DNA from: Bacteroidia bacterium
Lineage (GTDB): Bacteria > Bacteroidota > Bacteroidia > M30B66
Assembly: GCA_019695235.1 (NCBI GenBank)
Contig: JAIBAI010000033.1
Location: forward strand, 1-34,544
Direction of reading: 5' to 3'
Length of the DNA stretch: 34,544 nucleotides
Below, piece by piece: positions 10,918 through 29,900 of the stretch (the first letter of the stretch is position 1; the number at the start of each line of letters is the position of its first letter). The notes beneath the pieces were generated by a model. It saw only the letters and a list, made by a program, of their open reading frames with translations, was not told the DNA's origin and did no database searches. Position numbers and translations under genes: made by a program.

Positions 10918-12408
10918 CTAACTGTGCATCCGGCGTTTCCAGGCTCTTTTGGATGCCTGCTGCTCCAGGCCAGTACTTTTTACAACAGGCTTTTCTTCCT
11001 GTCTGGCAAGTACTGCCATGATAGCTGCAATTTCAATTTCATCAGCACTTAAGGGCTTTTCAAGTAAGGCTGGGTTAAAGTAGTGCTTTACGAAATTTGT
11101 GTCGAATGTTCCCTTTCTGAATGCCTCATGATTCAAGGCAAATGAACAAAAATCAAGGGTAGTTTTCACGCCAGTTACCTGATAATCTCCAATGGCACGC
11201 AGCATTTTATCAATAGCTTCTGAGCGATTGCCGGCATGTACAATCAACTTACTGAGCATCGGATCGTAATAAATCGGAATATCCATTCCTTCTTCAAAAC
11301 CTCCATCAACCCTCACCCCATTTCCGGCGGGCAAACGGTAAACCTCTAATTTGCCAATGTCTGGCAAAAACTGATTGGAGGGGTCCTCTGCGTACACCCT
11401 TATTTCGATAGCATGGCCGTTTATTCGTAAATCCTCCTGCGAAAAACTCAACTTCTCTCCCCTGGCTACCTGAATCTGTTCACGAACCAAATCTATACCG
11501 GTAATCAACTCAGTAACAGGATGTTCCACCTGTAAACGGGTATTCATCTCCAGAAAATAAAAGTTCAGATTTTCATCTACTAAAAACTCAACCGTTCCGG
11601 CACCAACATAATTACACGAGCGGGCTACCATCACTGCACATTCGCCCATGGCTTTGCGCATTTCTTCACTAAGAATAGCCGAGGGTGCTTCTTCAATTAC
11701 TTTCTGGTGGCGTCGCTGAATACTGCAATCACGCTCGAAAAGGTAACAGATATTGCCATGCGTATCTGCCATAATTTGTATTTCAATGTGACGCGGGGCA
11801 CCCACGTACCGTTCAATGAAAACCGAACCATCTCCGAAAGCTGACAAAGCCTCAGAAACAGCTAATTGCAGCTGCTCTGCAAAGTCTGCATCTTTCTCTA
11901 CCACACGCATCCCTTTGCCTCCACCACCGGCCGATGCTTTAATTAGCACCGGGAAGCCAATTGAGCTGGCAATCTTACGCGCCTCATCCGTATCGGTTAT
12001 CGCCTCATCAGTTCCCGGCACCAACGGAATGTTATACTTCTTTGCCGCAGCCTTGGCAGCCAGCTTTGAACCCATCATCTCCATTGATTCAGGTGAAGGG
12101 CCTATCAGGGTGATGCCCGCCTCTTTTACCATGCGCGCAAAAGCAGCATTCTCCGACAAAAATCCATAGCCGGGATGTATGCCGTCAACCCCTAAAGCCT
12201 TACTCACTTCAATAATCTTTTCAGCTTTCAGGTATGACTGTGATGAAGCCGGCGGGCCGAGTAATACTGCTTCATCAGCATAACGAACATGAGGTGCATT
12301 GCGATCCGCTTCTGAATAAACAGCAACGGTTTTAATTCCCATTTCCCGGGCGGTACGCATAACGCGCAACGCAATCTCACCCCGGTTGGCTACCAGAATC
12401 TTCTTCAT
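10918..12408 (-). CDS. accC: Biotin carboxylase subunit of acyl-CoA carboxylase
   Basis: A 496-aa ATP-dependent biotin carboxylase, which carboxylates biotin on its carrier protein for malonyl- or another acyl-CoA synthesis. Canonical motifs are MKKILVANRGEIALRVMRTA at the N terminus, HPGYGFLSENAAFA, the ATP-grasp glycine loop KASAGGGGKGMRVV, FGDGSVFIERYV, and the catalytic FLEMNTRLQVEHPVTE. The start was moved from an upstream TTG to the ATG at 12408 because MKKILVANRGE is the family's usual beginning. At 496 aa it is about 45 residues longer than E. coli AccC; the basic C-terminal tail (SKRAWKRRM) is an addition. No biotin carrier or carboxyltransferase gene lies nearby, so accetyl- versus propionyl-CoA carboxylase assignment is open. 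Confidence 0.93.
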   Translation of the reverse strand: MKKILVANRGEIALRVMRTAREMGIKTVAVYSEADRNAPHVRYADEAVLLGPPASSQSYLKAEKIIEVSKALGVDGIHPGYGFLSENAAFARMVKEAGITLIGPSPESMEMMGSKLAAKAAAKKYNIPLVPGTDEAITDTDEARKIASSIGFPVLIKASAGGGGKGMRVVEKDADFAEQLQLAVSEALSAFGDGSVFIERYVGAPRHIEIQIMADTHGNICYLFERDCSIQRRHQKVIEEAPSAILSEEMRKAMGECAVMVARSCNYVGAGTVEFLVDENLNFYFLEMNTRLQVEHPVTELITGIDLVREQIQVARGEKLSFSQEDLRINGHAIEIRVYAEDPSNQFLPDIGKLEVYRLPAGNGVRVDGGFEEGMDIPIYYDPMLSKLIVHAGNRSEAIDKMLRAIGDYQVTGVKTTLDFCSFALNHEAFRKGTFDTNFVKHYFNPALLEKPLSADEIEIAAIMAVLARQEEKPVVKSTGLEQQASKRAWKRRMHS

Positions 12409-12438
12409 AACAAAGGCCAAAAATACACATTCAGCGAA

Positions 12439-18717: not shown

Positions 18718-21700
18718 TTGCTGTTTGCCAAAACCTGCAAATTGCATCGCTTACGCCGCAATATAGTTGCTTTATGTACCAGTTGGGTACTGGCATTGCC
18801 CATCCCCCTTTGGGGTCAACAGTTGTACTTTGCCAATTATTCGGTTGATGATGGTTTGCCACATAGTCAGGTAAATCACATCATTCAGGCAAAAGATGGC
18901 TATTTGTGGGTTGGTACCAACATGGGCCTTTCACGTTTTGATGGCCATGAATTTCGCAACTATTCAAGCAAAGACGGCTTAGGTGACAACAAGGTGAGGG
19001 TAATTTTCGAACCTTCTGCCGGAAACCTTTTGATAGGCCACGAAAATGGAACGTTAAGCTGGTGGACCGGAACACACTTCGAGGTGTTTCAGCTTGATAA
19101 GGCAAGCGGTAGAATTCTGTGTATCTTTCAGGATAGAGATAAAAACCTTTGGATTGGCACAGAACATACCGGGGTTTTTATGTTAGCAGCCAAAGATTTG
19201 TTGGCAAACCTTCGACAAAAAAAATTCAAACACTATGCCCACAAAGAAGGACTCTCTCGTGATGTATTAGGGCTTGCACAGGATAAAAACGGCAACTACC
19301 TGTTTATCACTGATCTTGGCTTAAAACAACTGGATTCAAAATCTGGAATATTTTCTTTTTTTAAACCTAAAGGGCTTGATGTGGTGCAATTCTCTGCTGT
19401 GTTGTTCGACAAACACAATACGCTCTGGCTGGGAACTGTGAAAGAAGGCCTTTACTCATATAACACTGAAAAAGAATACTTTGTACGTCATGACACGCTA
19501 TCCGGCTACCTGAAGAGTAATTTTGTAACAAGTCTTACTTTAGACAAAAAAGGTGCTATTCTTGCCGGAACATGGGGCGGAGGACTGTCGGTTGTTGCTG
19601 ATAATCAGGCTACTATACTTACAGAGGACAAAGGTCTTGGGGAAAATAAAATCCGCTGTGCGATGGTGGATGACGAAGGTAATATCTGGGCAGGAACCAA
19701 CCAGAATGGTTTGTCTTGCTACCGGGGTGACCGTTTTGAGGTCTTTTTCAAATCAAGAGGCGGGCCTAACACACAGGTGGGAGCAGTGTTTGGTGATTCA
19801 AAAGGCCGTATGTGGTTTGGTGCGAATAACCATATCATGCTAATTAAACAAGCGGGAGCCATACCTGAAAAAATTGACCTTGGTTTTGCCGGAAAAGAAA
19901 CGGAAGTAACCTCAATTATTGAAGACCAAAAAGGCACTATCTGGATAGCAACCTGGGGGCGCGGGGTGTTTCTACTAAATACCTCAACACTTGAACTAAC
20001 CCGTTTTACAGGTCGTATTCCTGCTTCAAGCGACATTTCCTTCAACGAAAACTTCATTTATGCTTTGTATAAAGACAAAACAGGTCGCATCTGGTTCTCC
20101 ATGCTGCAAGGCCTGGCAGTATACCATCCGGCCCAGAACAGTATAAAAACTTATACGAAAATAGATGGACTTCCCGGCAACAGTATTACCGACATCCAGG
20201 AAGACCACCTGAGACGGCTTTGGATTGGTACTGCCGACAAAGGGCTTTCTATATTTGACAATGGTCACTTTACCTCAATAAACCCTCCTGACATCCGGAT
20301 CAATCCTGCCATTTCATCACTTGCCTTAGACAAGGCAAACAAAATGTGGATTGCAACTGAAGGGGGTGGGCTTTATTGCTTCGATGGCAAACAATATGCT
20401 AATTATTCTACCGAACAGGGCTTACCAAGTAATTATATCTCATTTGTCGAAACTGATCTGAATGGGAAAATTTGGCTCGGAACCCACAAGGGAATTTGTC
20501 GTTTTGACCCTCTGGCGAAAACCAATATCAACTTCGACAAAACCGATAAACATGCACGTATTGAGGCAAAACCAAATGCCGTATTTCTTGACCCTACAGG
20601 CTATATCTGGGCAGGCACTATCAATGGGGCATTAAAAATCAACACAAATAAGGTCATTCAGAACACAAAAGAATCTGTTACCTATATCACTACAGTAAAG
20701 GTTTTTCAGGATACGCTTTCCAGAACAGGACTCGAATTGAACTACCGAAGAAATTACCTGAGCTTTTATTTTATGGGAATTTGTTACAGCGACCCCGACA
20801 AAGTAATGTACCAGTATAAGCTCGAGGGTACCGATAAAGAATGGCAAAAGGTTACACAAAACTTCGTTAACTACAACAACCTAAACCCGGGTTCTTACGT
20901 GTTTATGGTACGCTCATGCAATAACGATGGTTTATGGAATCGCTATCCAACAACCTTTAGTTTTAAAATAACCCCGCCGTTCTGGATGACTTGGTGGTTT
21001 TACACTGGTAGCGGCTTGCTCTGTCTGCTGGTGATATATTCAATCGTTAAGTTTCGTGAACGCAACCTGCGCCTTGAAAAGAAACACCTTGAGCTGATGG
21101 TACTCTCAAGAACCCAGGAGATTGTAAGGCAGAAAGAAGAAATTGAAACCCAGCGTGATGAATTACAGGAAAGCAGTACCATCATCGAACAAAAAAACCA
21201 GGCTATTACCGATAGTATTCGCTATGCACAGAGAATCCAGCTAGCAACCCTCCCTTATTACGATGTTATATACAAGAACCTGACAGATACGTTAATTCTG
21301 TACAAACCAAAAGATATCGTTAGTGGCGATTTTTACGCTTATGCCAAAAAAGATACAAAGCACATCTTTGCAGTTGCCGACTGTACCGGGCATGGTGTGC
21401 CAGGGGCCTTCATGAGCATGATCGGAACCAATCTTTTCAACCAGATAATCAATGAAAAGGGCATCACTCAACCTGCCGAAATATTGCGCCATCTCGACAT
21501 TGGTATCGAGAGGGCGCTCAAACAGGATGAGAGTGAAAACCACGATGGAATGGACATGATTATTTGCTCCCTTGATTTCACCAATAAGCAATTTGAATAC
21601 GCAGGAGCCAACCGCCCACTCTGGATAATGCACCAGCAACCAACTAATACCCTGTACCCACAGGGGCCTGGCTTGCGTGCTGAATTATATGGTGAATATA

Positions 21701-22023
21701 TGTGTATGATTAAACCCGACAAAGTTCCTATCGGTGGGTTTCTCCGACTGTCAGAAAGTAGTTTCACCAATCACTTATTTATTTTTCAACCGGGCGATGC
21801 CATCTATCTCTTTACTGATGGCTTTGCCGATCAGTTTGGCGGCGAACACGGTCGCAAGTTGCTTTCAAAACGCTTCAGAGATTACCTGATTTCAATTCGG
21901 GATAAACCTGTGAAGGTGCAGGAAGATTTGTTGAATTTATATTTCGAAAACTGGAAACAAAACAGAGAGCAGGTAGATGATGTGTTGGTTGTTGGCATCT
22001 GGCATCATGGCAATGCTACCTGA
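18718..22023 (+). CDS. Two-component-type propeller sensor with SpoIIE phosphatase output
   Basis: About 1,100 aa. A signal peptide (VALCTSWVLALPIPLWG) is followed by a large Reg_prop beta-propeller region (about residues 35-670) with repeats such as DGYLWVGTNMGLSRFDG and GNIWAGTNQNGLSCY. Next come a Y_Y_Y domain (about 680-752), one transmembrane helix (762-779), a coiled coil (780-835) and a C-terminal PP2C-like SpoIIE phosphatase (about 840-1098; GDFYAY, VADCTGHGVPGAFMSMIG, DGMDMIICSLD, YLFTDGFADQFGG). It should sense a periplasmic signal and dephosphorylate a cytoplasmic serine/threonine target, such as an anti-sigma antagonist. There is no histidine kinase or receiver domain. No ATG is available: TTG 18718 or TTG 18742 are the candidate starts, the latter giving the cleaner signal peptide. 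The stop overlaps the convergent neighbour by 8 bases. Confidence 0.9.
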   Translation: MLFAKTCKLHRLRRNIVALCTSWVLALPIPLWGQQLYFANYSVDDGLPHSQVNHIIQAKDGYLWVGTNMGLSRFDGHEFRNYSSKDGLGDNKVRVIFEPSAGNLLIGHENGTLSWWTGTHFEVFQLDKASGRILCIFQDRDKNLWIGTEHTGVFMLAAKDLLANLRQKKFKHYAHKEGLSRDVLGLAQDKNGNYLFITDLGLKQLDSKSGIFSFFKPKGLDVVQFSAVLFDKHNTLWLGTVKEGLYSYNTEKEYFVRHDTLSGYLKSNFVTSLTLDKKGAILAGTWGGGLSVVADNQATILTEDKGLGENKIRCAMVDDEGNIWAGTNQNGLSCYRGDRFEVFFKSRGGPNTQVGAVFGDSKGRMWFGANNHIMLIKQAGAIPEKIDLGFAGKETEVTSIIEDQKGTIWIATWGRGVFLLNTSTLELTRFTGRIPASSDISFNENFIYALYKDKTGRIWFSMLQGLAVYHPAQNSIKTYTKIDGLPGNSITDIQEDHLRRLWIGTADKGLSIFDNGHFTSINPPDIRINPAISSLALDKANKMWIATEGGGLYCFDGKQYANYSTEQGLPSNYISFVETDLNGKIWLGTHKGICRFDPLAKTNINFDKTDKHARIEAKPNAVFLDPTGYIWAGTINGALKINTNKVIQNTKESVTYITTVKVFQDTLSRTGLELNYRRNYLSFYFMGICYSDPDKVMYQYKLEGTDKEWQKVTQNFVNYNNLNPGSYVFMVRSCNNDGLWNRYPTTFSFKITPPFWMTWWFYTGSGLLCLLVIYSIVKFRERNLRLEKKHLELMVLSRTQEIVRQKEEIETQRDELQESSTIIEQKNQAITDSIRYAQRIQLATLPYYDVIYKNLTDTLILYKPKDIVSGDFYAYAKKDTKHIFAVADCTGHGVPGAFMSMIGTNLFNQIINEKGITQPAEILRHLDIGIERALKQDESENHDGMDMIICSLDFTNKQFEYAGANRPLWIMHQQPTNTLYPQGPGLRAELYGEYMCMIKPDKVPIGGFLRLSESSFTNHLFIFQPGDAIYLFTDGFADQFGGEHGRKLLSKRFRDYLISIRDKPVKVQEDLLNLYFENWKQNREQVDDVLVVGIWHHGNAT

Positions 22024-23719
22024 AACTGCGTTTATCAAGCTCCTCTTTTGAAAACACCGGTGGCGAAATCTTGCTTTTTAAACTCCGCTCCTGAGGAGGC
22101 TTAAACAATTCCCCAGCCAGTTTTCTGTAAAGTGTCTGGTAGGCTGGCAAAGTCATCCGGCCATAAAGGGTATAGCCCCCCTCGAAAGATTGTTCCATAT
22201 ATTCTTCCGGTGTTACAGCATATCCTGCCATTTCATTGGCGTAGGTAGTGATGATAACATCCAGAATATCGTACTTCTCTAATGCTTTCAAAACGGTATG
22301 CCGCAAACGCATTCCTGCTGTAGTACTTAAATCGCCCGGAAAGCCAATAATTACCAGTGCACCTATGCGCATCATTTGTAGGGGTACAATCACCGGAAGC
22401 CAGCTGTGCTCTGTCAGTGCACCGGCTTCATATTGCCGTTTTATCTCGTCTTTTATCTCTGCCTGCCCGGTTGCAATAGGCAGTTTATTAAGCCGCTTGT
22501 AACCCAGCAATCGTTTTTGCTGCATTTCAACTGCAAGTACTTTGGGATGATGTATCTGCTTTAATGCATTCAGTCGCTGGCGTTCTCCCCGAATGCCTGT
22601 TAGAGGCATGGTATTTATTAACTCCCGCACCCGTATTAGTGAACGCAGCACCCCGCTTGTAAATGCATCAGTTCCATCAATGTCAGGTGAAGTACCTTCA
22701 AGAAATGACAAACCAACTACAGCCTGGCCGGTTCTACATGCTTCATCACCAACACAGAATTCGGCATCACACAATACATCCGACATATCAACGTACATCA
22801 TAACTGCATCAAGTTCACCACTCACCGGAATCTGAAATTCCTTACCCTCCGCCATTTGTCGCGCCTTTTCAAACTGTAAAAACCCGTTCGAATAGGCACT
22901 TTTAAAATCATCCTCGTAACGTCCACGTGGCCACCATTTGGCTTTCCCGTAATAATTTGGCGAAACATCGGCGGCAGCTTCCTGGCAAAAAGCAGCAATA
23001 AAGTTTGGGCCTGTCCGCTGATCATTTTCTAACAACGAAGCAGCATACCCTTTGTTATCTGCATTTATCTTGTGATTCGTGCTACTTATTGAATTCGCCT
23101 GCACCCCAAACCAGTTGATCAGGCCTTTATCACCAGGTTCCTTGGCACCAATCCGAAGCTGCTTCATCATGCGGTTCAGGGCCAGATGGGTTTGCATTTC
23201 ATCCCTTTGCACTACCTCCGGATTTCGATTGTATGCATCAAGTGAGCGATTAAACGCAACATCTGCTTCTTCCTGAAACAAATCTGCATTAAGACTAAGC
23301 TGGCTTTCTGCTAAATCACCTGCTGCCTCTTTTAATGCATCAAAACAGGCATTCAGGTAAGCCTGAAACACTTCCGGACGAAAACCCTTACAGGTGAGGT
23401 TGTGAAATGCGTAGTGCGAATGTCCGCCTGGCGCACTATGGGTATGTTGTGCACAAAGCAGCAGGTTTTCAATTGACAGGTGCAATGATGTAAGATTTTT
23501 CTTACATCGCTCTATCAATGCCTCTTTTAAATGATGACTGATGTAACTGCACTCTAGTACAACAAGCGCTATTACTTTGCTACTTTGTGAGAACACAAAA
23601 GCCCGGGCATAGAGTTCTGTCTCAAACCCATCAGCTAACACCCCAACTACCGGATAGCCATGCAAAGGCAGCAATGCCTTGCGAAAGCTCACTTTCGACT
23701 TGCCAACACCTGCTTTCAT
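22016..23719 (-). CDS. Neutral ceramidase-like protein with altered metal ligands
   Basis: A 567-aa protein resembling the N-terminal catalytic domain of neutral/alkaline ceramidases, which split ceramide into sphingosine and fatty acid. Matching landmarks are CAQHTHSAPGG (89-99), an FGVQANSISSTNHK segment (204-217) followed by DNKGYAA, FIAAFCQEAAADVSPN (nucleophile-equivalent Ser253), FPGDLSTTAG (460-469) and AGYAVTPEEY (498-507). Compared with remembered P. aeruginosa ceramidase ligands (His97, His204, Glu411, Tyr448), the second His appears as Gln207 and the Glu as Asp463; the Tyr is kept as Tyr500 with the same 37-residue spacing. There is no signal peptide and no C-terminal Ig-like domain, so it looks cytoplasmic. 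Activity on ceramide is doubtful. Confidence 0.8.
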   Translation of the reverse strand: MKAGVGKSKVSFRKALLPLHGYPVVGVLADGFETELYARAFVFSQSSKVIALVVLECSYISHHLKEALIERCKKNLTSLHLSIENLLLCAQHTHSAPGGHSHYAFHNLTCKGFRPEVFQAYLNACFDALKEAAGDLAESQLSLNADLFQEEADVAFNRSLDAYNRNPEVVQRDEMQTHLALNRMMKQLRIGAKEPGDKGLINWFGVQANSISSTNHKINADNKGYAASLLENDQRTGPNFIAAFCQEAAADVSPNYYGKAKWWPRGRYEDDFKSAYSNGFLQFEKARQMAEGKEFQIPVSGELDAVMMYVDMSDVLCDAEFCVGDEACRTGQAVVGLSFLEGTSPDIDGTDAFTSGVLRSLIRVRELINTMPLTGIRGERQRLNALKQIHHPKVLAVEMQQKRLLGYKRLNKLPIATGQAEIKDEIKRQYEAGALTEHSWLPVIVPLQMMRIGALVIIGFPGDLSTTAGMRLRHTVLKALEKYDILDVIITTYANEMAGYAVTPEEYMEQSFEGGYTLYGRMTLPAYQTLYRKLAGELFKPPQERSLKSKISPPVFSKEELDKRSFR

Positions 23720-23764: not shown

Positions 23765-24172
23765 TCAGCCCATTCCCAAAGAAATTATCCTGTCGAACTC
23801 TTCAACTTTCAAAGGCATCACACTGAGCCTTGATTGCCTTATCAAGCCGATGTTCTCAAGTATGCTGTCTGCTTTCATCTGCTGCAGACTTACCGGATGT
23901 TTCAGCTCCTGATAATATGAAAGCTCTACCGATACCCAACGTGCATCATCCGTGCCAGGGTCTTGAAAGAACTCGCGGCTAACCTTTGCAATACCCTGAA
24001 CCGCCATCCCTTCATTACTATGATAAAAAAGGACCAAATTGCCCTTTTTCATTTCTTTCAGGTTATTTCTAGCCTGGTAATTTCGTACACCATCCCAAAC
24101 CGTTTTACCCTCTTTTTTAAATCGCTCCCATGAATAAGCTCCTGGTTCAGATTTAACAAGCCAATATTGCAT
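23765..24172 (-). CDS. EVE-domain protein (THYN1-like)
   Basis: A 135-aa stand-alone EVE domain of the PUA-like fold. It starts MQYWLVKSEPGAYSWERF and contains VWDGVRNYQARNNLKEMKKGNLVLFYHS, the family's aromatic-cage region thought to read modified bases. It matches the usual bacterial/THYN1 length. The ATG at 24172 overlaps the holA stop by one base (TGATG), so translation is coupled; an in-frame TTG one codon earlier is less likely. It is third in the amn-holA-EVE run. The role is unknown; recognition of modified nucleic acid bases is inferred from the family. Confidence 0.9.
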   Translation of the reverse strand: MQYWLVKSEPGAYSWERFKKEGKTVWDGVRNYQARNNLKEMKKGNLVLFYHSNEGMAVQGIAKVSREFFQDPGTDDARWVSVELSYYQELKHPVSLQQMKADSILENIGLIRQSRLSVMPLKVEEFDRIISLGMG

Positions 24173-25179
24173 CAATGTAAAATTTTAAAAACAAGTTCTT
24201 TCAAAAGATCACCGCCACTGGCACTTTCATTATTTACGCCTTTGCTGCGCATATCATTGTCACGTAAATGGTGAATTATCCGGATGATTTTTGCCGGACT
24301 GTAATTATTTGCGGCAATTTCATAGTCTCTGATAAAGTAGGGATTCACCCCCATTGACTTTGCAAAATCAGTGTTTCCCTTACTTCTAAGCCATTGATAA
24401 TGCAACACTTTTGAGAAGTAGCCAATAAACGACCCTAGAATTGCCTGAATAGGATGGTTTTTCGGGTTGCCCGCCATAAAAAAAGCAATCTTATTAGCAG
24501 TAAAGATGTCTTTTTTGCCTAAAGCTTTCTGCAACTCAAACACATTGTACTCCCTGCTTACCCCTACTATTCGTTCAATATCTTTTTCAGTAAACTCATA
24601 GCCTGTCTGGAAGTTCACCATGAGTTTTTCGGCTTCGTTGGCAACTTTCTCTAATTCATTTCCGACAAATTCAGCCATCATGATGGCCGCTTTGGGCTGT
24701 ATTTTAAAACCCCGTTTAAAAAGAAAACGACCAATCCATTCAGGGATCTTATCATCTTTTAATCTGTCAGATTTTACATAAACAGCTTCCTTCTCAAGTA
24801 TCTTAGAAAAAGTCTTGCGTTTGTCTGGTTCCTTTCCTTTGTAACAAATAACAAGTACCGTACTGGGCTGGGGTTTTAGAATATACGGCTCGAGTGCTTC
24901 CATCCCCTTCATCAGTTGCGCCTCTTTTACCAGCACCACCTGGTACTCGCTCATCATCGGAAAACGCTTGGCCACCGCAACAACATCTGAGGCACTTACT
25001 TCCAAACCATACAAAACGCTTTGGTTGAAATCACGCTCAGATTCCTCCAGAATACTTGATTCAATAAACGATGATATCTGGTCAATATAAAAGGGCTCTT
25101 CACCACATAAAAAATAAACCGGATGAAATTGCCGGTTCTTCAAATCTTTTAAAACTGCTTCGGCTGTAACTTGGGGCAT
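24172..25179 (-). CDS. holA: DNA polymerase III, delta subunit
   Basis: A 335-aa HolA protein, the clamp-loader subunit that opens the sliding clamp. The N terminus shows the family pattern VYFLCGEEPFYIDQISSFI; then VVAVAKRFPMMSEYQVVLVKEA, the central VGNELEKVANEAEKLM and IERIVGVSREYNVFELQKAL, and a C-terminal helical domain. The length is normal. It follows amn by 9 bases and is coupled to the EVE gene by a one-base stop/start overlap. Confidence 0.93.
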   Translation of the reverse strand: MPQVTAEAVLKDLKNRQFHPVYFLCGEEPFYIDQISSFIESSILEESERDFNQSVLYGLEVSASDVVAVAKRFPMMSEYQVVLVKEAQLMKGMEALEPYILKPQPSTVLVICYKGKEPDKRKTFSKILEKEAVYVKSDRLKDDKIPEWIGRFLFKRGFKIQPKAAIMMAEFVGNELEKVANEAEKLMVNFQTGYEFTEKDIERIVGVSREYNVFELQKALGKKDIFTANKIAFFMAGNPKNHPIQAILGSFIGYFSKVLHYQWLRSKGNTDFAKSMGVNPYFIRDYEIAANNYSPAKIIRIIHHLRDNDMRSKGVNNESASGGDLLKELVFKILH

Positions 25180-26435: not shown

Positions 26436-28352
26436 TCACTGGATGCGTACTGCATTAAATATGGCTAAAAGCGCAACCCCTACATCAGCAAACACTGCTT
26501 CCCACATCGTAGCGATACCACCTGCACCCAAACCAAGTACAAGCGCTTTTACAAAAAAAGCCATTGCAATATTCTGCCATACAATTTGCTTGGTTTTTTT
26601 GCTGATTTGAATGGCCAATGCAATTTTTTCCGGACGATCATCCTGGATTACAATATCTGCTGTTTCAATGGCAGCATCACTACCCAAGCCTCCCATCGCA
26701 ATGCCTATGTCGCTGATTGCCAAAGCAGGTGCATCATTAAACCCATCGCCCGCAAATGCAACTGTTTCACCTGTTGATTTGATAGCCTGAATTATTTGCA
26801 CTTTCTCCTCAGGCAACAAGTCTCCATAGGCTTCCAATACGCCTAATTGAGCAGCAACTTTCTGAACAACTGCCTCTTTGTCGCCGCTTAGCATCACCGA
26901 GCTGATGCCCAATGCATTCAAGCGCTCTAACATATAACCAGCGGTAGGTTTCACCTGATCAGCCAGCAGAAAGCTTGCAGCGAAGCGTCCTCCGTATGCC
27001 ACGCCAACCCAGGTATATGCCTCAGCGTTTGCTTGGGGTACCCCTGAAATTGCAAAACGCTTCATCAGCTTTTGATTTCCTACCAGTAACTCATCAGCAC
27101 CGACCATTGCCCGAAGCCCAAATCCCGGTATTTCCTCAATATTACTAAGTTCAGTACCATTATCCGACCGCCCGATATATTTTACAATTGCTGCAGCAAT
27201 CGAGTGGGTGCTGTGCTTTTCTAATGCGTAAACCAGCGGTAATAACGTTTTCGGGTCAAAACCTTCTTGAATGTTTTGCTCTTGTACCCTGAAAACCCCT
27301 TCTGTTAAAGTGCCTGTCTTATCTATTGCAAGGGTACTCGTTTTTGCCAGAAGGTCTAAGAAATTCCCACCTTTTACGAGAATACCGTGCCGGCTGGCTG
27401 CCCCAATCCCACCAAAATAACCCAGTGGAATAGATATCACCAGGGCACAGGGGCAGGAGATTACCAGAAAAACCAGGGCACGGTACAACCATTCGCTAAA
27501 CTGATACTGCGGTAGCAAAATCATTGGCAGGAAGCAAATAAGCAAGGCCATCGCTACCACTATGGGAGTGTAGATGCTGGCAAACTTGCGAATAAACAAT
27601 TCTGTTGGTGCTTTGCGGGCTGTTGCCTGCTGTACCAATTCGAGTACCCTGCTCAGCTTGCTATCAGCAAATGGCGCATTGACCACCACTTCTGATGGCT
27701 GGTTTAAGTTAATCATTCCGGCCAGCACAACATCTCCTTTTCTCTTTACTACAGGCATACTTTCACCAGTCAGCGCTGCTGCATTAAATACTGCGGACCC
27801 TGATTCAAGTATCCCGTCAAGTGCCAAGCGTTCGCCAGCTTTTAGCCGTATTAAAGCCCCTACCTGCACGCTTGCTGCTTTCACTTTTTCTTCACCCTGC
27901 GCTCCAATTAGCAACACCTCTTCGGGGCGCTGATCAAGCATCTGCTGAATGGAAGTGCGTGCACTGCGAACGGCCATCGTCTGAAACGTTTCTCCGACAG
28001 CGTAGAAAAGCATCACCGTTACAGCCTCAGCAAACTCACCAATAACAAAGGCTCCAACTGTTGCAAGCGTCATCAGGAAAAATTCAGAAAAAACCTCACC
28101 TTTACGTATACTGTTGAATGCCGCTCTAATTACCGGGAAGCCCGTTGGGAGGTAAGCAAGTAAATACCCTCCCAAACGCCAGTTCCCGCTAAACCATGGG
28201 GCAGAAAACCAGTGGTCAAGAGCAATAGCTGCAAGAAGAAAGCCCAGGGTAGTAAGGGGTGCGGCAAACATACGCCAGTGCGAAGTAGCATCTGATACAT
28301 GGTCATGCGAATGTTCATGGCCGTGTTCATCAATAGTATGTTTATGGCTCAC
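26436..28352 (-). CDS. P1B-type Zn2+/Cd2+-transporting ATPase
   Basis: A 638-aa heavy-metal efflux ATPase. Landmarks (numbered from the chosen start): a His-rich N terminus (HGHEHSHDH), TGES near 195, the CPC metal site in VISCPCALVISIP near 300, phosphorylation Asp344 in DKTGTLTEG, the HP-type EKHSTHSIAAAI segment, and GDGFNDAPALAISDIGIAMG. The last helix carries Asp in FADVGVALLAIFNAVR, the mark of the ZntA-like Zn/Cd/Pb subgroup. There is no HMA domain; the His cluster may replace it. The start is uncertain: GTG 28352 (GGAG three bases upstream) is preferred because TTG 28376 falls inside a -7 box; ATG at 28271 would remove the His region. Confidence 0.92.
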   Translation of the reverse strand: MSHKHTIDEHGHEHSHDHVSDATSHWRMFAAPLTTLGFLLAAIALDHWFSAPWFSGNWRLGGYLLAYLPTGFPVIRAAFNSIRKGEVFSEFFLMTLATVGAFVIGEFAEAVTVMLFYAVGETFQTMAVRSARTSIQQMLDQRPEEVLLIGAQGEEKVKAASVQVGALIRLKAGERLALDGILESGSAVFNAAALTGESMPVVKRKGDVVLAGMINLNQPSEVVVNAPFADSKLSRVLELVQQATARKAPTELFIRKFASIYTPIVVAMALLICFLPMILLPQYQFSEWLYRALVFLVISCPCALVISIPLGYFGGIGAASRHGILVKGGNFLDLLAKTSTLAIDKTGTLTEGVFRVQEQNIQEGFDPKTLLPLVYALEKHSTHSIAAAIVKYIGRSDNGTELSNIEEIPGFGLRAMVGADELLVGNQKLMKRFAISGVPQANAEAYTWVGVAYGGRFAASFLLADQVKPTAGYMLERLNALGISSVMLSGDKEAVVQKVAAQLGVLEAYGDLLPEEKVQIIQAIKSTGETVAFAGDGFNDAPALAISDIGIAMGGLGSDAAIETADIVIQDDRPEKIALAIQISKKTKQIVWQNIAMAFFVKALVLGLGAGGIATMWEAVFADVGVALLAIFNAVRIQ

Positions 28353-28373
28353 GGGCTCCGGAAAAAGATTAGT

Positions 28374-28381
28374 CAAATGTA
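28374..28381 (-). promoter_or_regulatory. -7 box for the P1B ATPase
   Basis: The minus strand reads TACATTTG, an exact TAnnTTTG match. Transcription would start near 28367, downstream of the TTG at 28376 and upstream of the GTG at 28352, which argues for the GTG start. No clear -33 TTG and no recognisable metal-regulator operator. Confidence 0.4.
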
Positions 28382-28805: not shown

Positions 28806-29900
28806 CTAAAACCACGCTTTTTTCTTAAAATACCAAAGCATCCCTCCTGTTATGGCAATCATGAGCCCCCACACAGCAGGATATGCCCACCAAACACGCA
28901 ATTCAGGCATGTAATCGAAATTCATGCCATAAATACCAACAATAAAAGTTAGTGGAATGAAAATAGTTGCGATAATGGTCAGCGTTTTCATTACCATGTT
29001 CATTTTATTGCTGATTGAATTCAGGTAAATATCCATCAAGCCACTGGTAAGGTCACGATAAGTTTCAATTGTGTCAATGGCATGCACACAATGGTCGTAC
29101 ACATCGCGCAGGTATAAATCTGTATTGCCCTTTAAAAACCGGCTGTCACTTTTTGTCAATAAACCTATCACTTCCCGCATTGGCCAAATAGCCTTCCGGA
29201 GAAAAATTAATTCTTTTTTTAAACGATGTAACTCAACCTGATTGCTCTTAACGGCCTCATCAAGTAACTGAAATTCAAGTTCTTGCAACTGGTCGCCGAT
29301 TTTCTCCAATACCACAAAATAATTGTCAACAATCATATCGAGCATTGAATACATCAGATAATCAGCACCTGATTTACGCAGCTTCATGTTGCCCTTTTTC
29401 AAGCGCTCACGCAATGCTTCAAACACATCACCCTTGTCTTCAATAAAACTCACCAAAGTATTTCCGCACAGCACTATGCTCAATTGTTCGGTGGTAACAC
29501 ACTGGTTTGTTTGATCAAAGTCAATCATCTTCACCACCAGATACAAATAGGTGTCGTAATCATCAACTTTCGGCCTTTGCTCTGTATGTACTATATCTTC
29601 AAGTGCAAGGACGTGGAGACCCAGTTGCTGGCCAATCATCGCAATTTTGTCGGGCTGATGCACGCCTGTGACATGATACCAGTACACTTCGTCAGAAGCC
29701 TGCCCGAAGGTGATTTCATGTAAGTCAATCGCTGCTTTGTGGGCTATTGTTTCATTAGTGTACCTGAACAATTCAGCTTTAATCGCAAAATCACGCTTTT
29801 CGCCCAAATAAGTCAGCGTACCAGGTGCCAAACCGGCTTTGCGGCCAAATCGTGTACGACGGTGTTCTCGGGTTTGTGCAATTACTGTTTTCCTGGCCAT
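28806..29900 (-). CDS. corA: CorA-type magnesium/cobalt transporter
   Basis: A 364-aa CorA protein, a homopentameric Mg2+ (also Co2+/Ni2+) channel of the inner membrane. A long cytoplasmic domain contains VLALEDIVHTEQRPKVDDYDTYLYLVVKM-type family blocks (around 95-125) and a long helix (LQELEFQLLD, LHRLKKELIFLRKAIWPMREVI). Two C-terminal helices follow, with the signature YGMNFDYMPEL between them near residue 323 and a basic end (FKKKAWF). The N terminus is basic (TREHRRTRFGRKAG), unusual but seen in some family members. It starts 28 bases after the TrmH-like gene and is probably co-transcribed. Confidence 0.95.
   Translation of the reverse strand: MARKTVIAQTREHRRTRFGRKAGLAPGTLTYLGEKRDFAIKAELFRYTNETIAHKAAIDLHEITFGQASDEVYWYHVTGVHQPDKIAMIGQQLGLHVLALEDIVHTEQRPKVDDYDTYLYLVVKMIDFDQTNQCVTTEQLSIVLCGNTLVSFIEDKGDVFEALRERLKKGNMKLRKSGADYLMYSMLDMIVDNYFVVLEKIGDQLQELEFQLLDEAVKSNQVELHRLKKELIFLRKAIWPMREVIGLLTKSDSRFLKGNTDLYLRDVYDHCVHAIDTIETYRDLTSGLMDIYLNSISNKMNMVMKTLTIIATIFIPLTFIVGIYGMNFDYMPELRVWWAYPAVWGLMIAITGGMLWYFKKKAWF

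Follow-up and report, generated by a model that had tools for sequence, protein, structure and literature searches.

The solved neutral ceramidases most similar to the protein considered here are those of Pseudomonas aeruginosa (PaCD, or CerN; PDB entries 2zws and 2zxc) and human (ASAH2; 4wgk). The zinc ligands of PaCD, which we take to be His97, His204, Glu411, and Tyr448, provide the reference for the metal site; the last two of these had also been named in the sequence-only reading of this DNA. For the human enzyme, a structural review names His196, Arg257, Tyr579, and Tyr591 as catalytic and assigns Ser354 the positioning of the catalytic Arg (PMC6952831). In P. aeruginosa, the SphR regulon includes cerN together with sphC and sphD, encoding a flavin oxidoreductase and a PLP aldolase, respectively, and SphC and SphD have been proposed to convert sphingosine to an aldehyde plus glycine (PMC3900636). 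Sulfonolipids, by comparison, are analogues of ceramide-1-phosphate, and Lys281 distinguishes SulA, an enzyme of their synthesis, from serine palmitoyltransferase (SPT) (PMC9304779).

Fold and zinc-ligand positions

A ceramidase-like gene is located on the minus strand at 22016..23719 of the window (the whole 34,544-nucleotide stretch of DNA that was analysed). It starts with an ATG at 23719 and encodes a protein of 567 aa with the PF04734 catalytic-domain fold; the genome contains no second PF04734 gene. The match to PF04734 (neutral ceramidase; E=8.5e-91, 305.5 bits) is above the curated cut-off of 32.1 bits, and sequence searches against solved structures returned PaCD (2zws, E=2.9e-58) and the human enzyme (4wgk, E=8e-47). 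The AF2 model (pLDDT 90.5) has 2zxc as its best PDB match (TM 0.78), and its top PDB matches are the same two ceramidases that were matched by sequence, the likeness to PaCD extending over the whole length. The ceramidase fold landmarks claimed at the outset are thus borne out. The equivalog NF041649 (neutral ceramidase), with a cut-off of 1200 bits, was not reached by the window protein (223 bits). For L035, the most degenerate member of the family described below, the AF2 model has a pLDDT of 92.0, and the closest PDB entries are likewise ceramidases.

In the HMMER alignment, in which the chain numbers of PaCD coincide with the published ligand numbers, PaCD His97, His99, His204, Glu411, and Tyr448 correspond to His92, His94, Gln207, Asp463, and Tyr500 of the window protein, whose ligand set therefore reads His92, Gln207, Asp463, and Tyr500 instead of His-His-Glu-Tyr. 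The sequence-only reading had arrived at the same alignment, which is upheld: the sequence alignment of all homologues offers no other His or Glu for the ligand columns, because the motifs NWFGV-Q/H-xxS, DNKG, and PG-D/E align consistently in every one of them.

Gln207 (23099..23101, minus strand), which takes the place of PaCD His204 and of human His303 (number by offset), was found in all ten genomes of the window's GTDB-level family—hereafter the Gln-type family—and in none of 80 non-redundant homologues outside it, all 80 of which keep both His ligands. Of these 80, a class-wide search supplied 43; the other 37 represent Bacteroidota, Moraxellaceae, Streptomyces, P. aeruginosa, and a single MAG labelled Cyanobacteria. 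Because Gln207 occurs in ten of ten independent family genomes and nowhere else in the comparison, it is due neither to chance nor to sequencing error; the proposed change of the second His ligand to Gln is confirmed, and it is fixed across close homologues. Furthermore, the first His position is lost in most of the family: His92 (23444..23446, minus strand), the equivalent of PaCD His97, is kept in the window protein and in L005, and is replaced in the other eight members by Asn (six) or Ser (two). As these eight proteins also carry Gln207, they have no zinc-ligand His at all. Tyr500 (22220..22222, minus strand), equivalent to PaCD Tyr448 and human Tyr579, is invariant.

The change at the Glu position is of a different kind. 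Asp463 (22331..22333, minus strand) replaces PaCD Glu411 in the window protein and L005 only, the other eight members having Glu, so that the ligand positions of the ten proteins follow the patterns H-Q-D-Y, N-Q-E-Y, and S-Q-E-Y. The substitution that had been pointed out is real, but it is not fixed in the family, being common to just one of nine relatives. Asp463 was also rejected as a key change, given that eight of nine relatives keep Glu and that L146 and L148 have Asp together with intact His ligands. Both are distantly related PF04734 proteins, about 420-427 aa long, of a separate subfamily in Bacteroidia; their zinc positions read His, His, Asp, and Tyr, and the Ser column is occupied by Gly or Ala.

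Family history and the wider active site

The ten Gln-type proteins form a single clade (support 100/100), nested among His-type sequences and with a long stem (0.78 changes per column). All come from the window's GTDB-level family and order, the named records of which are MAGs; the isolate labels of several point to ponds and lakes, and the term "freshwater" rests on these labels. Since Gln207 is present in every member of one clade, the simplest account is a single ancestral loss of His204 followed by differing further changes. The open frame is full-length in all ten family genomes, with one truncated only by a contig end, and many columns are invariant at a pairwise identity of about 50% within the family. 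The dN/dS of about 0.035 in the closest family pair (dS about 2; the remaining pairs are saturated) indicates that the gene is not decaying.

The nearest relatives, at about 32-40% identity, are found in Bacteroidota and Moraxellaceae and are short PF04734 proteins of the His type (e.g., L042, L044, and L056). They have the same length and start point, but, unlike the Gln-type proteins, keep the zinc ligands. Unlike PaCD, and unlike the human enzyme with its C-terminal Ig-like domain, the window protein has no C-terminal domain: PF17048 was detected by profile search neither in it nor in the short His-type relatives, and was found in a Streptomyces protein (L055). In the alignment, the only guide used for the N-terminus, residue 3 of the window protein falls at the first strand of the mature form, and no secretion signal of the kind present in PaCD was seen. 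Because the short His-type relatives share its length, its start, and its absence of PF17048, the short and probably cytosolic form does not set the Gln-type proteins apart. Thus, of the earlier proposal of a distinct cytoplasmic branch with an altered metal site, the branch and its site stand, as a strongly supported clade with a fixed substitution, but the apparent lack of a signal peptide and the absence of a C-terminal domain do not mark it.

With respect to the residues that are important in the human enzyme, His94 (23438..23440, minus strand; PaCD His99, human catalytic His196) is kept in the window protein and is Arg in one relative, L006. Arg158 (23246..23248, minus strand; human catalytic Arg257) and Ser253, in a DVSPN motif (22961..22963, minus strand; human Ser354), are invariant in the family. 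The human catalytic set is nevertheless incomplete: His94, Arg158, and Tyr500 are retained, but human Tyr591, equivalent to PaCD Tyr460, is replaced in the alignment by Phe512 (22184..22186, minus strand). Phe occupies this position in four family members including the window protein, a change absent from the sequence-only reading. Ser253 had been described as a nucleophile-equivalent serine; the residue is indeed present, but a nucleophile role is not backed, the review of the human structure giving it the positioning of Arg (PMC6952831). Its presence says little, because the same column holds Thr or Met in many zinc-intact homologues (L014, L015, L016, L025, L030, and many of L090-L142), a variation that, as far as sequences go, agrees with a positioning rather than a nucleophile role.

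Fifty columns are at least 95% conserved in the His-type homologues. Of these, 34 are fully kept in the Gln-type family and 16 are broken, with most of the broken columns being ligands or parts of adjoining motifs (H97, H99, H204, A242, Q243, E411, Y441, Y445, Q458, Y460, E461, and G463). The Q243 column holds six residues across the family (Q, G, A, V, N, and C) and the Y441 column four (Y, N, C, and L); six different residues at Q243 appear as a pattern of lost constraint. In addition, cysteines were gained. Cys89 (23453..23455, minus strand), in the strand leading to His92, is invariant in the family and mostly Thr or Ser elsewhere. Nearly all His-type homologues have Ala where the window protein has Cys245 (22985..22987, minus strand), and a Cys occupies either 245 or 246 throughout the family, at the formerly invariant FAQ motif. 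Cys317 was gained as well and is invariant in the Gln-type family.

Lipid background and partner enzymes

The window's genome encodes three alpha-oxoamine synthases, namely Kbl (L060), a SulA-like protein (L061), and a BioF-like protein (L062). The SulA-like protein matched solved cysteate acyltransferase/SulA structures with 578-608 bits, versus 230 bits for SPT, and the diagnostic SulA Lys is present in it (the K in FAKSLPM) and in eight other family loci that were read. No SPT match exceeded the family cut-off in any Gln-type family genome. The combination of SulA carrying the diagnostic Lys with no SPT leads to the prediction that the host makes sulfonolipids, not sphingolipids. The earlier remark that the host belongs to a group making its own sphingolipids is accordingly wrong here, where SulA (a cysteate acyl-ACP transferase) is found and no SPT passes the cut-off. 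SulA is encoded in all Gln-type family genomes and also in most of 100 Bacteroidia sampled; it therefore sets the lipid background, and by itself identifies no substrate. For the same reason, its co-occurrence with the Gln-type protein was rejected as a statistic for a sulfonolipid substrate.

The 100 Bacteroidia genomes of the co-occurrence sample comprised 19 His-type, 10 Gln-type, and 71 non-carrier genomes. A SphD-like PLP aldolase was found in nine of the 100, all nine of them ceramidase carriers, and an ALO-type FAD oxidase in 15, including 13 carriers. The oxidase and/or the aldolase was present in 18 of 19 His-type genomes versus 2 of 71 non-carriers (p=9e-16), and, when counted by family, in 11 of 12 His-type versus 2 of 43 non-carrier families (p=7e-9). 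Both enzymes were absent from all ten Gln-type genomes, including that of the window, which in this respect differs from P. aeruginosa with its SphC and SphD. Completeness reaches at least 90% in six of these ten genomes, and thus the absence is not attributable to MAG incompleteness. Because the Gln-type family is one clade, the loss of partners and the loss of ligands make up one correlated event, not independent trials.

The His-type ceramidases not only co-occur with these partners but are sometimes adjacent to them. A fold-III PLP protein, divergent but related to 3-hydroxy-D-aspartate/D-threonine aldolase, is encoded directly downstream of the ceramidase in L042, L044, L045, and two Acinetobacter loci, and an ALO-type FAD oxidase is also nearby in three of these loci (L045 and both from Acinetobacter). 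Such pairings of canonical short ceramidases with partner genes were noted at L042:12935-14134, L044:8074-9252, L045:9164-10345 and 11118-12413, L056:11728-14193, and L058:11632-14291. Together, the His-type ceramidase, oxidase, and aldolase look like a CerN-SphC-SphD-type set for sphingoid-base degradation, and by analogy the Bacteroidota and Acinetobacter set would fit a role like that of its P. aeruginosa counterpart. From this comparison, such a three-gene set in Bacteroidota and Acinetobacter is now testable. One further genome, G055 (L018, L032, and L084), encodes two His-type ceramidases and a PLP aldolase, with no SulA-like match and no SPT over the cut-off; its organism is a possible consumer of foreign sphingolipids.

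Possible functions and gene neighbourhood

We consider it rather probable that the Gln-type protein abandoned zinc-dependent hydrolysis of sphingoid amides a single time, in the family's common ancestor, and has since been retained in the cytosol for a different task. It would then be a clade-specific member of the ceramidase family, retained as a ligand-binding or repurposed protein and probably no longer cutting ceramide. Most members have lost both imidazole ligands, neighbouring positions have changed in varied ways, and the partners are missing, all of which favours an exit from zinc-dependent hydrolysis; the purifying selection and intact fold imply that some function is still selected. 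In the proposed sequence of events, His204 would have changed to Gln once, in the ancestor of an uncultivated freshwater Bacteroidia family; His97, Gln243, Tyr441, Tyr445, Gln458, and Tyr460 would have changed afterwards, differently in different lineages, with the fold, Arg158, Ser253, and Tyr500 meanwhile retained under purifying selection. Without the zinc ligands, water would no longer be activated to cut ceramide. The amphiphile pocket is probably retained, such that an N-acyl amine may be bound without hydrolysis, or with slow hydrolysis only, giving the protein a role as a carrier, sensor, or pseudoenzyme partner. Since the host has SulA but lacks SPT, the likeliest ligand that can be put forward is an N-acyl-capnine, or a precursor of it, in place of ceramide, although this suggestion is speculative and itself rather doubtful.

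The same site can be read in other ways. Gln207 is fixed, and each of the ligand replacements (Asn, Ser, Gln, and Asp) is an oxygen donor. This is a tidier pattern than decay alone would leave, and it could reflect a retuned metal site. Moreover, conservation persists at Arg158, Ser253, Tyr500, and (in nine of ten members) His94, all of them important in the human enzyme. The main rival, which is tentative, builds on these features: the protein would still hydrolyse an N-acyl amine such as N-acyl-capnine, using another metal on oxygen donors or the new cysteines, with a candidate centre formed by Asn/Ser/His92, Gln207, Glu/Asp463, and Tyr500, or by Cys89 and Cys245/246. The invariance of the catalytic Arg158 and Tyr500, the new invariant Cys89, and the family-wide Cys at either 245 or 246 suit such an amidase, as does the occurrence of SulA in all family genomes, sulfonolipids being ceramide-1-phosphate analogues (PMC9304779). 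However, the neighbouring Gln243, Tyr441, and Tyr460 are swapped for unlike residues across lineages, SulA is not specific to these genomes, and the downstream sphingoid-degrading enzymes are gone. A stronger version, in which the fold has been rebuilt on a non-zinc centre of oxygen donors and/or cysteines that deacylates or binds the host's own sulfonolipids, seems unlikely; if true, it would be the first sulfonolipid-specific branch of the neutral ceramidase family. It is similarly improbable that the protein is an ordinary zinc ceramidase in which His92, Gln207 (via its O), Asp463, and Tyr500 hold the metal, with Gln and Asp as weak ligands. In the window protein, His92, His94, Arg158, and Tyr500 are indeed kept and none of the ligand positions lacks a possible donor; in addition, Asp occupies the Glu position in the two distant His-type proteins mentioned above. 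Since the window protein and L005 are the least altered members, the window protein taken alone could still bind zinc weakly. Against this, eight close relatives with the same Gln have no His ligand left at the site, Tyr460 is Phe, and both an endogenous SPT and the partner enzymes are missing. A pseudogene decaying in a lineage that gave up sphingolipid use would account for the lost partners and active-site residues, but is scarcely credible for a gene with a full-length frame in all ten genomes (one cut by a contig end), the low dN/dS, a high-confidence fold, and many invariant columns despite about 50% identity.

The second His ligand and often the first, Gln243, Tyr441, other residues near them, and both sphingoid-pathway partners have been lost, a picture that suits loss of the ancestral reaction better than the "different metal chemistry" suggested earlier. 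A literature search on ceramidase pseudoenzymes found no paper, and a clade-wide loss of the zinc site in neutral ceramidases thus appears undescribed in the literature searched. The ten Gln-type proteins constitute a natural mutagenesis series for distinguishing the parts of the site that serve catalysis from those that serve binding. Furthermore, they occur in predicted sulfonolipid makers, and no sulfonolipid-degrading or -sensing protein was found in the literature covered.

No family-wide operon partner of the Gln-type gene was found in the neighbourhoods of the ten family loci. Its most recurrent neighbours are convergent, namely a PD-(D/E)XK protein (five of ten loci) and a Reg_prop/Y_Y_Y/SpoIIE regulator (four of ten). 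In the window, the gene for this regulator (18718-22023, plus strand) and the ceramidase-like gene overlap by 8 bp at their 3' ends (22016-22023), and the convergent regulator is also present in three relatives (L034, L035, and L040). Directly upstream, and on the same strand as the ceramidase-like gene, the genes for an EVE-domain protein and DNA polymerase III delta (23765-25179) overlap each other by 4 bp. As this pair is located a few kb off on the opposite strand in L039, it forms no stable operon with the ceramidase-like gene. Farther along, 26436-28376 encodes a P-type (E1-E2) ATPase that may export zinc or other heavy metals and whose N-terminus is rich in His (HKHTIDEHGHEHSHDH); a CorA transporter gene (28806-29900) is found near it.
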